Below are positions 24,902 through 30,468 of a stretch of 57,482 nt of DNA, in pieces. Under the pieces are notes generated by a model, which was not told the origin of the DNA, did no database searches, and worked only from the letters and a program-made list of their open reading frames with translations. Within the stretch, counting starts at the first letter, position 1; every line of letters starts with the position of its first letter. Both the position numbers and the translations under genes were made by a program. Origin of the DNA: an uncultured Hyphomicrobiaceae bacterium (GTDB lineage Bacteria; Pseudomonadota; Alphaproteobacteria; Rhizobiales; CAMYJA01); assembly GCA_947258705.1 (NCBI GenBank), contig CAMYJA010000010.1:9489-66970 (forward strand). Direction: 5' to 3'.

Positions 24902-25807
24902 ATGGGACAGTCCATTGCTATAATGAACACCAAGGGAGGGGTTGGAAAATCGACTCTTGCGATGGCCATTGCCGAAACGGCTTCTGTATATCATAACAAA
25001 AGCGTTCTCATCATCGATTCAGATCCGCAAACCAGCATGAGCGTCATGATGATGCCGGTGCACCGCTGGGAAGAACTTGAGCGTGATAGTAAAACGCTGG
25101 TTCATTTTCTTGCTCAAACCGTTCTCGGCGATGAGAAGCTCGACTGGAAACAGTTTGTCGCCTCCGAAGTTTCCGACGTCGACGAAGCCTCCTCCGTCTA
25201 TCTGATGCCAAGTCACATGGAGCTTTCGTTATTCGAACGGGCCGTTTCAGAAGCCAACCACGCGCGCGCGCTCCGCGAAACCGTCAGCGAATTGCTTGAT
25301 GAGGCCAGGGAATTATTCGACCTGGTCATCATCGACTGCCCCCCCGGCATTTCCATTCTGACCGAAATCTGGCTGCGCGAGGCAGACTATTATCTGCCGC
25401 CCACTAAGCCCGACTATCTCTCGGCACGGGGGCTGGCCATACTGGGACGGTTCCGTCAACTCTATCCGAACATGAAATTTTCCAAAATTCTCGGCGTCGT
25501 CATTAACATGAAAGACCGGCGCTCGCCCATCGATCAGGAATGGCATGGGCGCATCGCTTCGCTACAGGAAAACAAGTGTTTCGTGACAGCGATACCGCGC
25601 CGCGCCCACATTCAGAGAGCTGCGGACTTCAACGATAGCAAGCGCAGCTACGCCTCTAAATACCCCGCCGATGCTGGCAAGTCATTGCGCGACCTCGTGG
25701 AAGAAATATTGGAGCGTCTGGCACAAGGGGCCGACGATGACGGCAATAAATTCACCGATGCCGACGAAGAGCTGGCAACGGAGAAAACCGCAAAACCGGT
25801 CAGTTAG
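24902..25807 (+). CDS. orphan ParA/MinD-family ATPase
   Basis: The 301-residue P-loop ATPase starts MGQSIAIMNT and has the deviant Walker A KGGVGKST at residues 11-18. It also has the switch aspartates (LIIDSDPQTS, VIIDCPPG) and the ParA-type KPDYLSARGL segment. GAGG sits five bases before the ATG. No parB gene or parS-like repeat is adjacent, so this is an orphan ParA, of the type that positions protein complexes rather than DNA. It converges on the double-ATPase gene with 14 bases between the stops. A functional link between them is inference. The C-terminal 30 residues are acidic and low in complexity. Confidence 0.88.
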   Translation: MGQSIAIMNTKGGVGKSTLAMAIAETASVYHNKSVLIIDSDPQTSMSVMMMPVHRWEELERDSKTLVHFLAQTVLGDEKLDWKQFVASEVSDVDEASSVYLMPSHMELSLFERAVSEANHARALRETVSELLDEARELFDLVIIDCPPGISILTEIWLREADYYLPPTKPDYLSARGLAILGRFRQLYPNMKFSKILGVVINMKDRRSPIDQEWHGRIASLQENKCFVTAIPRRAHIQRAADFNDSKRSYASKYPADAGKSLRDLVEEILERLAQGADDDGNKFTDADEELATEKTAKPVS

Positions 25808-25821
25808 GCGCAGGGCACCAA

Positions 25822-28800
25822 TTATCGGACATCGAACAGTTTTAGCTGTTTCTCGTCATGCCCCTTGGTCTCGCGTGCGAGTTGCTCGATCCGGTCAAAC
25901 GGTACCTGGTCGGCCTGAATTAGCGAGCGCTGTGATTTCATCGGGCAGACAACACCCTCCTGAATGAGATGAAATTCACCAACGGTCTGATTGGGCAGAA
26001 CCATTGCCGGATCGATGCCGCTATCCGATGCAAAGGCCGCCTTGAGCTTTTTCAGCGCCGTGTCTTCCCGGACCTTTCCGATAAACCAGGACGTTACCTG
26101 ATCGCGCGATTTATAATCGAGATCACCCGGAGATTGCGTGGCGAGAACCATGCCCACACCGGCCGAGCGTGCCCGTTTCATAAGACTCTCAAGCGGCTCC
26201 TTGGTCGCAGGTTTTGATGCTGACGGTATATAGAGGTCCGCCTCATCGAACATGATAACCGCCTGAAGCTCATCATTCGGATTGCGCTGACAGAAGCGTA
26301 AAGCTTCAGATAGAAATTGCGCAACCCAGAACAGGATATTCTGATTGTCGCCGAGGAAGCCCGTATAAATGACGGAAAGCCGCGTTCTTCCAGGACGGGC
26401 ATGGGGCCCGATGCCAAGCAGCGATTCCATCCGCAACGGCTCGCCGCCGCCTTCGAACAGAGCAAGATTGCGGTGCCTCAGCGAATCCAGTTGAGCGACA
26501 AGATCGCGGCGCAACCGGCCGCTAGGGTCCATGCGCTGCGTCAATTCGACAAGCTCCATATCTTCATTTTCCAGAAGATAGATGAGATCCGCCAATGTCA
26601 CCTCCGAGAGGCTTTGTGCTCCAAGAAGGTTGAGCGCAACGGACAGAATGCCGCCCTGCCGCTGATGAGTCGCCGATTTCTTCAAATGCAGCATGTCCGC
26701 AAGGGCCGCCGCAGAGACATTTGCCAGTTGCTGTCGTTCATGCTCGGGGAGCTCGCCGATACCACTCGGCAACAATGTTATACTGATCGGCCGCCCCGAG
26801 GTCCGCCCCGGCGTATACACGGCCACGTCTATGCTCGATCCGAGGTCTTCGCGCAGGACCACGCGCTCGCCTTGCTCATTGTCTTCCGCGCGCCAGACAT
26901 CGGGATTGGCATAAGAACAAAGATCGCCTTTGCGGTCGATAAGCACCACCGGCGTCCCCGACATCAGCAATTGTTCGATAACCGAAAGTGCAAGCGTTGT
27001 CTTGCCGGATCCGGATCCGCCGAGCACGGCCATATGCCTCTTGAGTACATTCTTCGTCAAATGCAGGGATTGCTTCAGCCCCGAGAGCGCGGTTCCGACA
27101 AAAAGCCCGCTATCGCCAGCCGCGGCACCGGTCCCGTTTGCAGTCTTACCCGAGGTCTCGAAGGACAGATGTGCAAGACCGTCCGCATGCGCATCTTTCT
27201 CACCGGCTGCATCGTCCGGTTCGGGACCCAGATCCTCCGGCAGCTCCTCATCCTTGTCGTTTCGTGCATCTCTGTCGTCGGTATCACCGGATTTACGTCT
27301 GCCGATCAACCCTGAAACGAAAGGAATTCCCCAGCGCGAACGCTCGGCAGTATCCTTCTTCTCGCCAAAGTTTTCATCATCGGACGTCTTGATCGCCGGA
27401 CCCCCGACGATTTGCGACCGGGCAAGTTTCAATGGTGTCTCTCCATCTTCGGACACATCGCGTTTGTCCGAGATCGAGGTCACCGAAGCGGTGTCGCGAT
27501 CAGGTTGTTCTCCGATAAATTGCGCCCCAGCCGATCCGGCCACAAGGTGCATGAGCTGCAATATTGAAGGAAGGCTGCCAAGGGGCATGAACTCGCGCAG
27601 CCATCCCGTGAAATCACCCGTCGACCCATGACGCTTGTGAAATTCGAGTAATGACAATATCCGCTCCAATTCATATAGCGGGACGACTAGGCGTCGCCCG
27701 CCTTCGGATAAAAAGCGGCGAATACTCTGTCCCGTCGCGCTGCGCACGCTCGGCGGAAAATCCACCGTGCGCAAAATGATAGGCGGCTTGCCTTCACGGC
27801 TTTGCAGAACCTTTTCGACTTGCCGTTTGAGCGCGCCACCCTGACTGCCCTTGTTGCAGACGAACAATCGCGTCTCGATGCTCTCGCCTGACCGGTAAGT
27901 CACGGTCAGATCTGCCGCAACAAGCTCAACCAGCCAGTCCACATTGTTAAAGACAACGTCGAATTCTCCGCCATTTTCCACGCTCAGCAACCCAAGCGCT
28001 CTGGTGAAGACCGACATCAGGTCTTCTTCCTCTTCTGGAATGGCCGGCTCGAAATCATGGAGATGCTGGTCCCAGAGCTCTGAAATACCGACCCGCTTCG
28101 TCTGTGCAGAACCTCCGTGGCCACCCTGAGATATTCCCTCTTGCGGCTCCGACTGATCCTCGTCCACCACATCCACGTGCGACAGGCCTTTCCAATGGCG
28201 CTCGGCCGTTTCCAGCAGACGTCTCGTCGTGAGCCCTGCCACCTCGTCAAAAAAAGCGTCGTCGAATACGTCCTCGCTACCGGAACCGCCTGAGCTGTCC
28301 GAAGAAAGGCCCGAAGCTTCGAGTCGGCTGGCAATGATCAGCCTTGCTTCGCTCGTCGATCGCGCCTCTTCAAGCCTAACCGGTCCGGATTTCTCAATCC
28401 TGTCCGTGAAGGACTGGGGCAGAAACTCACGTGTCTCAAAATAAAAATCGTCGAGACATGAAATGATGACAATCGACGACGGCACCCTGTTTGCGATTTG
28501 TATCAGGTCCCGAACGGCTTTTTGAAAACGCTCCTCGGCATCGTCGAAAAATCTCAAATCCTCGACCTGATCTATGGCGAACACAAGCGCCGCACCATCG
28601 ACCGCATGCATGATGCGGCCGAGAGATTCGATGATCTCGAAGGCTCGGCCTTCGCCATCGTTCGGATCCAGCGCCCCCACCGCGGCGCGGCTTATTTCAT
28701 TGAGCGGCCGTCCATAGAGATATTGCCTGACCCGCTGGTCGATCCGGGGATCGCTCCGCTGCATATAGAGGAGCGCGCGCACAATATTGATATCGAGGTC

Positions 28801-29376
28801 GAGCTCGGCGATTTTCTCGGAAGCGACGATTTCATCAGCAATTTCGATGACCAATTGCGCCAGCGCATCCGGTTCGAATTCGCATTCGCGGAGATCCTCG
28901 AGCGCCTTGTGATCGATCAGGCCTGCATCCTGTACCAGCCGGTTGGAAAGCCGCATCAGGCTTGATGCGCCCGGATCGACAGGATCATATGGCTTCTCAA
29001 GAGAACTGATGAGACGGCGCAGAAAATAATCGGCATAATTCAAAACATCCGGCGTCATCTGGGCATAGCCGAAATAGCCGCGCCCATCGCCATGCGCCTG
29101 CGTTCTCAAAGCCCTGAGAAGATGGGTCTTGCCGGCCCCCGATTGCCCGTGAAAAAGAAGCATGCGCGAAATGGAGCTACCCTTCCCTTCGCGAACGGCC
29201 TCTAAAAGCTCATCGAATTTCGCCCTCGCGGAAGCATGCACATCGGCCACATCATGTGGGTCAAGCCGCCAAATGTCGTCCTCCCACGTAATCGAATGTT
29301 CGAAAACATGAGCAGGTCGCCCGGTACCCTGCGAGGTGTGCGCCTCCATCGCCATACTTGTCTTAACCCTCTTCAT
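25822..29376 (-). CDS. giant fusion: AAA-type ATPase plus HerA/FtsK-like ATPase
   Basis: This 1184-residue protein has two P-loop modules. The N-terminal one has Walker A GQSGAGKT (about 77-84) and Walker B ALVFAIDQVED (about 265). A middle region (about 440-600) with an FNNVDWLVELVA segment is unassigned. A long acidic/basic low-complexity linker (about 640-765) follows. The second module has Walker A GGSGSGKTT (about 785), Walker B VIMFDEADLYIP (about 1042) and sensor-like ATQSPGDLDYKSRDQ (about 1080), as in HerA/DUF87 translocases. The start is uncertain (TTG 29385, ATG 29376, ATG 29355). I cannot name a characterised homologue. A role in defence or DNA transactions is possible but unproven. 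The 345-residue unknown lies just upstream on the same strand. Confidence 0.85.
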   Translation of the reverse strand: MKRVKTSMAMEAHTSQGTGRPAHVFEHSITWEDDIWRLDPHDVADVHASARAKFDELLEAVREGKGSSISRMLLFHGQSGAGKTHLLRALRTQAHGDGRGYFGYAQMTPDVLNYADYFLRRLISSLEKPYDPVDPGASSLMRLSNRLVQDAGLIDHKALEDLRECEFEPDALAQLVIEIADEIVASEKIAELDLDINIVRALLYMQRSDPRIDQRVRQYLYGRPLNEISRAAVGALDPNDGEGRAFEIIESLGRIMHAVDGAALVFAIDQVEDLRFFDDAEERFQKAVRDLIQIANRVPSSIVIISCLDDFYFETREFLPQSFTDRIEKSGPVRLEEARSTSEARLIIASRLEASGLSSDSSGGSGSEDVFDDAFFDEVAGLTTRRLLETAERHWKGLSHVDVVDEDQSEPQEGISQGGHGGSAQTKRVGISELWDQHLHDFEPAIPEEEEDLMSVFTRALGLLSVENGGEFDVVFNNVDWLVELVAADLTVTYRSGESIETRLFVCNKGSQGGALKRQVEKVLQSREGKPPIILRTVDFPPSVRSATGQSIRRFLSEGGRRLVVPLYELERILSLLEFHKRHGSTGDFTGWLREFMPLGSLPSILQLMHLVAGSAGAQFIGEQPDRDTASVTSISDKRDVSEDGETPLKLARSQIVGGPAIKTSDDENFGEKKDTAERSRWGIPFVSGLIGRRKSGDTDDRDARNDKDEELPEDLGPEPDDAAGEKDAHADGLAHLSFETSGKTANGTGAAAGDSGLFVGTALSGLKQSLHLTKNVLKRHMAVLGGSGSGKTTLALSVIEQLLMSGTPVVLIDRKGDLCSYANPDVWRAEDNEQGERVVLREDLGSSIDVAVYTPGRTSGRPISITLLPSGIGELPEHERQQLANVSAAALADMLHLKKSATHQRQGGILSVALNLLGAQSLSEVTLADLIYLLENEDMELVELTQRMDPSGRLRRDLVAQLDSLRHRNLALFEGGGEPLRMESLLGIGPHARPGRTRLSVIYTGFLGDNQNILFWVAQFLSEALRFCQRNPNDELQAVIMFDEADLYIPSASKPATKEPLESLMKRARSAGVGMVLATQSPGDLDYKSRDQVTSWFIGKVREDTALKKLKAAFASDSGIDPAMVLPNQTVGEFHLIQEGVVCPMKSQRSLIQADQVPFDRIEQLARETKGHDEKQLKLFDVR

Positions 29377-29430
29377 GAACAGCAATTTTCATAAGTTAAT
29401 CGCCGCTAGCCCCATAACTTGTTTTTGTTT

Positions 29431-30468
29431 TTAATCATCGACACGAATGAAATGCCATTCGGTGTTTTTATAATTCACGACCGAGGCCTTGAGATCGGCC
29501 ATATTTTTCCGGTTTCGCAAATCGGCATTGAGTAAATTGACATGACCCGCTCGATGCGCTTCGGCCAGAAGCGTCTTGAAGCGCCCTTCGTTCAACCCGA
29601 GTTCGGGGCGCTCCGAACGAATCGATTTCCATACATGAGAGATATATGCCCTGCGGTTTCCCGGCCAGCCCTTTGCGCTTTCTTTCGCCATTGTGTGGAC
29701 GACCACCGAAAATCCCTTGAGATCGCTCGAAAAGTCTGATCGGGCCTGGTCAATATCCTCAAGTGGCGCATCCATCAGTTTCCTCAACACCGCATCCCGA
29801 AGCGCGGCCAGGCCGGTTCCGGTCGCCCCGGCTTTTTCCGCGGCGATTTGGGCGATCAGAAGATTGTCATTGGGAAAGTCCCGCGGCCGGCTCAACAACT
29901 GTGCGGCAATTAGCCTGCCGGTCGGTCCCGGCAGTTTGAGGCGCCCCTTTGCAATATTCTTGAATTTCGCCCCGAAGCCCTGCTCAAGCGCCAATCCGGC
30001 AAGCTGATTGCGCAAAGATGCGGCGCTTTGGGAAGGTTTGGCGGGCAAACCATATTCCGACTGAACAATTGCATGACGGAGACCGCCGATTTTCTCAAGA
30101 GCCCTTGTTTGCGCCTTGCCCGCTTTCGCCATGCCCAAAGACCGGGCGATCAAATCCCTGTTCTTCAGCCTCTCCCATACCGGGCGGCCCTTGATTTTCT
30201 GTCCGAGGAACAATTCGACCGCTTCCAGCCCGCCCGGACCCGCAGCGACGGTTTTCCGTACACCGGGGAGAAGCAGTCCGGCCCTGACAAGCCCGCTCAA
30301 TTCATCATCGCATCGCTTGCGCCGTTGCGCGGGGCTCAGGCTATGATCTACAAAACAGGCCAAATCCCGACGCACGGCATCAACGCCCACCCCCATGCCG
30401 TTCTCGCATAAGGCGCGCAGTAAAATGAGATGGCGAATCGTATGCGTGCTGGTCTCTGGCTTTGCCAA
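29431..30468 (-). CDS. unrecognised protein, probable partner of the fusion ATPase
   Basis: The protein has 345 residues if it starts at the TTG at 30468, where GGAGG lies six bases upstream. An in-frame ATG at 30582 would add 38 residues, including a CTQC pair, but has no ribosome binding site. The N-terminus (THTIRHLILLRALCENGMGVGVDAVRRDL... ELSGLVRAGLL) looks like a winged-helix DNA-binding fold. The centre is helical and basic. The C-terminus (GRFKTLLAEAHRAGHVNLLNADLR) looks like a second small helical domain. No membrane segment or catalytic motif is seen. It ends 54 bases before the fusion ATPase start, so they form a likely operon. I do not recognise the family. Confidence 0.75.
   Translation of the reverse strand: MAKPETSTHTIRHLILLRALCENGMGVGVDAVRRDLACFVDHSLSPAQRRKRCDDELSGLVRAGLLLPGVRKTVAAGPGGLEAVELFLGQKIKGRPVWERLKNRDLIARSLGMAKAGKAQTRALEKIGGLRHAIVQSEYGLPAKPSQSAASLRNQLAGLALEQGFGAKFKNIAKGRLKLPGPTGRLIAAQLLSRPRDFPNDNLLIAQIAAEKAGATGTGLAALRDAVLRKLMDAPLEDIDQARSDFSSDLKGFSVVVHTMAKESAKGWPGNRRAYISHVWKSIRSERPELGLNEGRFKTLLAEAHRAGHVNLLNADLRNRKNMADLKASVVNYKNTEWHFIRVDD

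Follow-up and report, generated by a model that had tools for sequence, protein, structure and literature searches.

We describe here a two-gene operon in a 57,482-nucleotide stretch of DNA from an uncultured Hyphomicrobiaceae bacterium (GenBank assembly GCA_947258705.1, contig CAMYJA010000010.1, positions 9,489 to 66,970; the whole stretch is referred to below as the window), which encodes a 345-residue partner protein (U345) with a predicted winged-helix N-terminus and a large dual ATPase. The operon pair is near-universal in the family of soil and water bacteria that holds Hyphomicrobium and Filomicrobium, where it is mostly single-copy, sits in recurrent synteny and is vertically inherited. 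We propose, as a judgement poised evenly between acceptance and doubt, that it is a putative vertically fixed, nuclease-less variant of the HerA/FtsK capture type that acts as a resident DNA-translocating machine, a role that the sequence-only reading of the window had raised as a possibility and that the near-universality of the pair and the congruent trees now make the best reading.

Both genes are read from the reverse strand. U345, the first gene of the operon, occupies 29431..30468 (open frame to 30582) from a TTG at 30468 that is closely preceded by CGGAGG, and the dual ATPase follows at 25822..29376, with 1184 amino acids from the ATG at 29376 or 1187 from a TTG at 29385. As the U345 stop codon lies 54 bases before the ATPase ATG on the same strand, the two look like one operon. 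A scan of named bacterial genomes yielded 53 loci encoding the ATPase, mostly under Hyphomicrobium, Filomicrobium, Hyphomicrobiaceae and Hyphomicrobiales titles with a few labelled otherwise (Devosia, Bradyrhizobiaceae, bacterium MnTg02). In 53/53 of them U345 precedes the ATPase on the same strand, with a gap of -201 to +210 bases in 52; the count includes one locus (L042) whose best U345 match falls in a 25-aa open frame and was counted for position only, as well as loci in which U345 is cut by a contig end (L023, L027, L036, L037 and L046). The conserved unit is this two-gene operon of U345 and dual ATPase, and not the three-gene module with an adjacent ParA gene that the sequence-only reading had put forward.

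Across 101 whole genomes of the order, U345 occurs in 12 and strong ATPase matches (E < 1e-50) occur in 13, namely the same 12 and G016. The family holding Hyphomicrobium and Filomicrobium (f2) carries U345 in 98/103 genomes and in 73 of its 76 good ones, the good genomes without it being G408, G469 and G476; 95 of the 98 have one match and the other three have two, and genus g53 has U345 in 22/22 genomes. The module is also present in families beyond f2 (f33, f1, f3, f19, f39 and more). A profile of the ATPase N-terminal half, distant rows included, was matched in 45/397 genomes of the order and, among 385 genomes sampled from the class, in the window's own genome only; the N-terminal half had no match in plasmid and phage collections, and the profile none in viral contigs.

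The inheritance of the pair can be followed through the genes that recur around it, many of the 53 loci being cut by contig ends: a CAP lipoprotein at 39, a PBP-like gene at 20, a D-Ala-D-Ala carboxypeptidase at 18, a flippase at 15 and a MoeA-like gene at 14 (the PBP-like and MoeA-like genes are named after the copies in G018). ATPase tree distances correlate with those of CAP (r 0.79, n = 28), PBP (0.92, n = 20), carboxypeptidase (0.94, n = 18), flippase (0.81, n = 14) and MoeA (0.80, n = 14), and for each of the five 0/999 permutations reached the observed r. The mean ATPase tree distance is below that of the neighbour in 5/5 comparisons, and pairs of well-supported splits in conflict with the ATPase tree number 0 for CAP, flippase and MoeA, 1 for carboxypeptidase and 2 for PBP. 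When the flank genes of the 53 loci were clustered (genes of at least 100 aa only, with cluster names given by eye save those with Pfam scans), inspection of the 30 largest clusters by eye brought up neither a nuclease nor a toxin. Overall, the conservation, synteny and congruent trees are marks of a vertically inherited core machine and not of a defence island.

In the large protein, an ORC/Cdc6-like AAA+ ATPase and a HerA-type translocase are joined, and each keeps an intact nucleotide-binding motif. Pfam places two separate P-loop modules in it, AAA_22/AAA_16 near residue 74 and DUF87/HerA near residue 784, in agreement with the two distinct ATPase modules read from the sequence alone. The ORC/Cdc6-like AAA+ domain spans approximately residues 45-405 in the 1187-residue numbering (28171..29253, reverse strand, as are all domains of both proteins; Walker A at ~29125-29148) and is delimited by the Pfam AAA_22/AAA_16 matches together with structural matches of the first half to ORC2 (1w5t, Z 15.1 over 252 residues, root-mean-square deviation (rmsd) 4.0) and Cdc6 (1fnn, Z 14.7). 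The same half matches BrxC (9zdx, Z 14.7) and TnsC (7ufi, Z 14.6), such matches lying at Z 13-15, and Pfam also returns nSTAND matches for the AAA+ domain. The HerA/FtsK-type translocase domain, approximately residues 759-1160 (25906..27111; Walker A at ~26995-27018), is recognised by Pfam (DUF87, HerA_C) and by structural matches of the second half to HerA (4d2i, Z 17.9) and to DndH-C (7es4, Z 17.8), the former matched by sequence at 65.6 bits. Both Walker A motifs are intact in 47/47 complete ATPase copies from the 53 loci; the Walker A, Walker B (D-E) and T-Q residues of the HerA half are invariant in 22/22 aligned sequences, and the Walker residues of the AAA+ half are likewise invariant in the alignment. 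A Walker B pattern for the HerA half matched 42/47 copies, the pattern having omitted leucine at one place, with the D-E pair invariant in the 22 aligned rows.

Between the two ATPase domains lies a middle alpha/beta domain, approximately residues 434-621 (27523..28086), bounded from AlphaFold2 secondary structure and residue columns. In the moderate AlphaFold2 model its elements run helix, three strands, helix, strand, helix, strand, which is the order of the restriction-endonuclease (REase) fold and suggests that the domain may adopt it. The expected E-x-K stretch is C-N in 18 close sequences and in two rows from family f30 (alignment A2), and a Pfam scan of the middle domain alone from six members (E up to 10) gave 0 matches. 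The ATPase model has no clear ORC-type winged helix-turn-helix (wHTH) after this domain; a linker predicted as disordered follows at approximately residues 626-758 (27112..27510), with predicted local distance difference test (pLDDT) values of ~25-43 and poor conservation in alignment A2. The full ATPase was matched in Pfam, NCBIfam, PADLOC and PHROGs by general ATPase and HerA families, among them one PHROG named as a terminase and another of unknown function; the kinship to defence ATPases suspected earlier holds.

U345 gave a good AlphaFold2 model (pLDDT 90), which supports a winged helix of MarR/PadR type in its first 91 residues (30196..30468): in the VIA list, for residues 1-132 only, the best match to MarR/PadR-type winged helices has Z 10.7 and rmsd 2.0 over 77 residues, lending support to the winged-helix N-terminus that had been thought probable from sequence. 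No family match to U345 was found in Pfam, NCBIfam, PADLOC or PHROGs, a U345 profile searched against the sequences of solved structures gave one match only, at E 1.4, and Foldseek gave no match at E 0.001 or better, with weak rows for MukE/MukF and Brr2. At one named locus (L042:8588-9953) no proper U345 open frame stands upstream of an intact ATPase, which reflects either a broken gene or an assembly error.

The Pfam-named genes flanking the operon in the window are of envelope type (bacterial macroglobulin, PBP1C-like transglycosylase/transpeptidase, D-Ala-D-Ala carboxypeptidase, CAP lipoprotein, polysaccharide flippase and DsbB), PADLOC matched 0 of ten window flank genes, and no defence or mobility genes were found at the locus. 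The earlier description of ordinary envelope and housekeeping flanks free of mobility genes thus holds for the Pfam-named flanks, as envelope genes, and for mobility. The CAP-domain lipoprotein gene (window:31679-32344), divergent from U345 and present in 39/53 loci, encodes a protein resembling the divisome-associated lipoprotein DalA at 93.9 bits, below the curated cut-off of 200. On the far side, upstream of ParA, a 336-aa open frame (window:23808-24818) looks like an outer-membrane barrel by eye only; it has no Pfam, NCBIfam or PADLOC match and no relative at the 53 loci.

More distant relatives of the ATPase are found in nuclease-bearing operons. In 5/5 relatives read, three genes that overlap or are closely spaced encode a DUF559-type nuclease, a small winged-helix-like protein and a dual ATPase; the carriers, from Actinomycetota and Alphaproteobacteria, are two relatives from the order (G029, L106:9745-14838; G047, L109:4720-9796) and three records of the plasmid collection, from Tsukamurella (L143:10299-15267), Methylobacterium (L144:10234-15243) and Nonomuraea (L145:8166-13300). 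DUF559 is confirmed by Pfam in L109 and L143 and assigned by alignment in the other three, and all five aligned nucleases have the same D, E and D at the likely active site. PADLOC returns mainly HerA, mad8 and DndH matches for the ATPases of L106 and L109, gives their nuclease a weak homing-endonuclease match and their partner none, and we regard the DUF559-winged helix-dual ATPase operon as a candidate defence system. The five nuclease-linked ATPases form their own clade apart from the window lineage, with support of 1.00 in both halves. A comparison of alignments A2 and A4 by hhalign returned a probability of 100, a value inflated by rows L106 and L109 standing in both alignments, and independent support for the ATPase relationship comes from tblastn matches with the window protein. 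Homology of U345 with the small partner of these relatives was not accepted, as hhalign gave a probability of 5% and E 0.0074 over the N-terminal 70 columns only. DUF559 itself had no match in the window's genome, where other REase families were not searched genome-wide.

The surroundings of L109 (L109:4720-17987) and of the window operon (window:16176-30468) share the same macroglobulin and PBP1C-like genes, though their ATPases are only distantly related, possibly through in-place replacement or an insertion hot spot. A third type is present in family f30 as a pair of partner and dual ATPase (L107:6415-11463, L108:7842-12839) with a similar 243-aa gene downstream in both; this gene is PdeM-like in L107 (TIGR04123, 120 bits, below the cut-off of 150) and without a Pfam match in L108. 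The HerA part of the f30 ATPase is nearest DndH, at 97.4 bits in L107.

The functional proposal draws on the HerA/FtsK capture systems, which bring together Orc/Cdc6 ATPase, inactive and active REase, HerA/FtsK and wHTH components, on a single chain or spread over several, to which a DndG-like protein with multiple wHTH is sometimes added, and which are proposed to intercept invading DNA and feed it to a nuclease, as set out in the excerpts used here of the original account (Rakesh, Aravind and Krishnan 2024, PMC10853773); a 2026 BREX paper, also drawn on in excerpt, restates this proposal. The window module probably shares its ancestry with these Orc/Cdc6-linked systems. In the mechanism that we envisage, U345 and the ORC-like half would direct the complex to particular DNA, and a ring assembled from the HerA part would pump double-stranded DNA through itself. 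With no nuclease gene in the operon of this lineage, the output would be a chromosomal transaction and not cleavage, and the motor would serve the cell's own DNA in segregation, recombination or the clearing of stalled replication. Should this be so, the operon would exemplify the conversion of a defence-type DNA-capture machine to core cellular duty, and living nuclease-bearing cousins would be there to compare it with. Open-library searches returned no literature on this module in Hyphomicrobiaceae among their top-ranked results.

Several observations weigh against a resident machine of this kind. U345 diverges faster than the ATPase (mean tree distance 2.34 versus 1.07, n = 41), as expected of an arms-race recognition subunit, and well-supported splits conflict with the ATPase tree in three pairs for U345, in addition to those in the PBP (2) and carboxypeptidase (1) trees. 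The ATPase trees fit either nuclease loss in the window clade or gain in the other; U345 matches the small partner of the nuclease-bearing relatives only at the hhalign level given above; and the AlphaFold2 model of the full ATPase is moderate (pLDDT 69, predicted template-modelling score 0.41). Moreover, vertical fixation is compatible with a defensive role, possibly with a non-DUF559 nuclease elsewhere. In the rival that we take most seriously, if still with more doubt than belief, the pair is a core immune device whose U345 recognises plasmid or phage DNA while the Orc-HerA protein captures and pumps it, either to a nuclease elsewhere or so as to strip or exclude it. Judged by domain make-up, the systems closest to it are predicted to act in defence, according to the excerpts of PMC10853773, its HerA part matches the PADLOC HerA models and mad8, and both the fast-diverging partner and the existence of nuclease-bearing cousins fit such a role; however, it would have to be reconciled with near-universal, syntenic presence across a whole family, with slow evolution of the motor, with the lack of PADLOC matches in the ten window flank genes and with the empty searches of plasmid, phage and viral collections. 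Were the pair such an immune device, its degree of fixation would be out of the ordinary.

One particular form of the resident-machine reading, which we consider improbable, would have the motor pass the chromosome through hypha or bud neck in budding bacteria like Hyphomicrobium. The module is near-universal in the Hyphomicrobium and Filomicrobium family, and in Hyphomonas neptunium a second segregation step is driven by an unknown mechanism for which an AAA+ DNA translocase has been suggested, as stated in excerpts of the source (PMC6650430); against this, the module is also found in other families (f33, f1, f3, f19, f39 and more), and the N-half profile matched only the window's genome among the 385 of the class, a sample in which Hyphomonas membership is not established. 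With pufL and PQQ-dehydrogenase as lifestyle stand-ins in 23 genomes, f33 looks methylotrophic, as do G052 and G089 of f2, which speaks neither for nor against budding. For chromosome transport or maintenance in hyphal budding Alphaproteobacteria, whose transport motor is not known, the operon is a concrete candidate amenable to deletion. A purely regulatory pair, with U345 as transcription regulator and the ATPase as a STAND-kind co-regulator or signal ATPase that pumps no DNA, appears more improbable again: the resemblance of the U345 N-terminus to MarR/PadR regulators and the nSTAND matches of the AAA+ domain would suit it, but not a HerA-type translocase whose Walker A, Walker B and T-Q residues never vary in the alignment.

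Finally, the idea of a single machine for DNA partitioning made up of ParA, the ATPase and U345, in which ParA would position the motor, is largely refuted and receives the least credence from us. The ParA gene (24902..25807, forward strand, 301-aa open frame, Pfam AAA_31/CbiA) is convergent with the ATPase gene, their stop codons 14 bases apart, and the three open frames and their spacing are as first read; its profile matches in Pfam, NCBIfam, PADLOC and PHROGs are to ParA-type and other P-loop proteins. It is also an orphan, as had been noted: no ParB was found beside it, the window (contig C10) lacking the adjacent ParB gene of a ParABS system and the genome's single ParB match lying on contig C2. 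In favour of a joint machine, three families (f1, f19, f39) have ParA in convergent orientation to the ATPase, and a clade with support 0.93 unites the window's ParA with those of f19, f39, f46 and G475. On the other hand, ParA is present at 0/53 of the named loci, it is missing from 27/103 f2 genomes at E 1e-40 (present in 76/103), it occurs in three f12 genomes with only weak ATPase matches, and convergent genes share no transcript. The sequence-only reading had held that ATPase homologues regularly lacking the other two genes would speak against a common system, and this is what is seen for ParA and not for U345.

The distribution of ParA elsewhere is that of a neighbour outside the conserved module. 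Outside the window itself, convergence with the ATPase was seen in G018 and G038 alone (stop-codon gaps of 58 bases in G018 and 87 in G038), and ParA was not accepted as a member of the module. Among the 101 genomes of the order, ParA (E up to 1e-20) occurs in 11, partly other genomes than the 12 with U345; in G001 and G089 it lies away from the ATPase; in G045 the ATPase pieces are on another contig, so that adjacency can be judged only in part; and G011, G058 and G095 carry ParA but match the ATPase only weakly. In the 12 f2 genomes with ParA and U345 on one contig, the two are at least ~130 kb apart (positions compared by eye), and genus g53 has no ParA at E 1e-40, one of its genomes having a distant ParA of 31% identity. 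An orphan ParA family ~46-59% identical to the window's is found at different loci in several families, with examples in f2 (L078, L082, L146, L147) and f12 (L079-L081).

The window module can be compared with known HerA-containing systems. It has the HerA fold and motifs in common with HerA-NurA, SIR2-HerA and DUF4297-HerA, whereas the HerA proteins of those systems have ~500-700 residues and are paired with NurA, SIR2 or DUF4297 effectors; to our knowledge, an ORC-like half is not part of these complexes. With MADS it shares a match of the C-terminal HerA part to mad8 (67.5 bits by PADLOC, for a model of 314 positions), but the mad1-mad8 set is absent: otherwise there are only weak mad8 and mad3 P-loop matches in the three proteins and none in the ten flank genes. 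Its HerA domain is of the DndH-C type (7es4, Z 17.8), yet the ATPase is much shorter than the PADLOC DndH models (1389-1715 positions), and the DndF and DndG that accompany DndH or DptH in DndFGH are lacking, with no PADLOC match to them in U345, ParA or the ten flank genes. The DUF559-winged helix-dual ATPase operons have the same ATPase layout with a small winged-helix gene directly before it; unlike the window operon, they carry an extra nuclease gene and a shorter partner weakly similar to U345, and fall in a separate clade.

The closest counterpart is provided by the Orc/Cdc6-linked HerA/FtsK capture systems, so that the combination, which the sequence-only reading could match to no nameable system, does resemble a published one, as far as the excerpts of PMC10853773 describe it. 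The window module has both the Orc/Cdc6-family AAA+ and the HerA/FtsK translocase domain, and a winged-helix partner gene besides. Its middle domain follows the AAA+ domain and fits the inactive REase in element order, with catalytic-like residues replaced and no Pfam match, and U345, in which the N-terminal wHTH is the part supported by structural matches, may be set beside the multi-wHTH DndG-like partner of a subset of these systems. Two features differ: the active REase encoded in the capture operons has no equivalent in the two-gene window operon, none being recognised by eye in the flank clusters either, and their mobile neighbourhood is replaced by a fixed core locus (98/103 genomes, synteny, congruent trees). 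Because of these two differences we describe the module as a variant that works like the capture systems, with which it probably shares common descent, and do not file it as a member.

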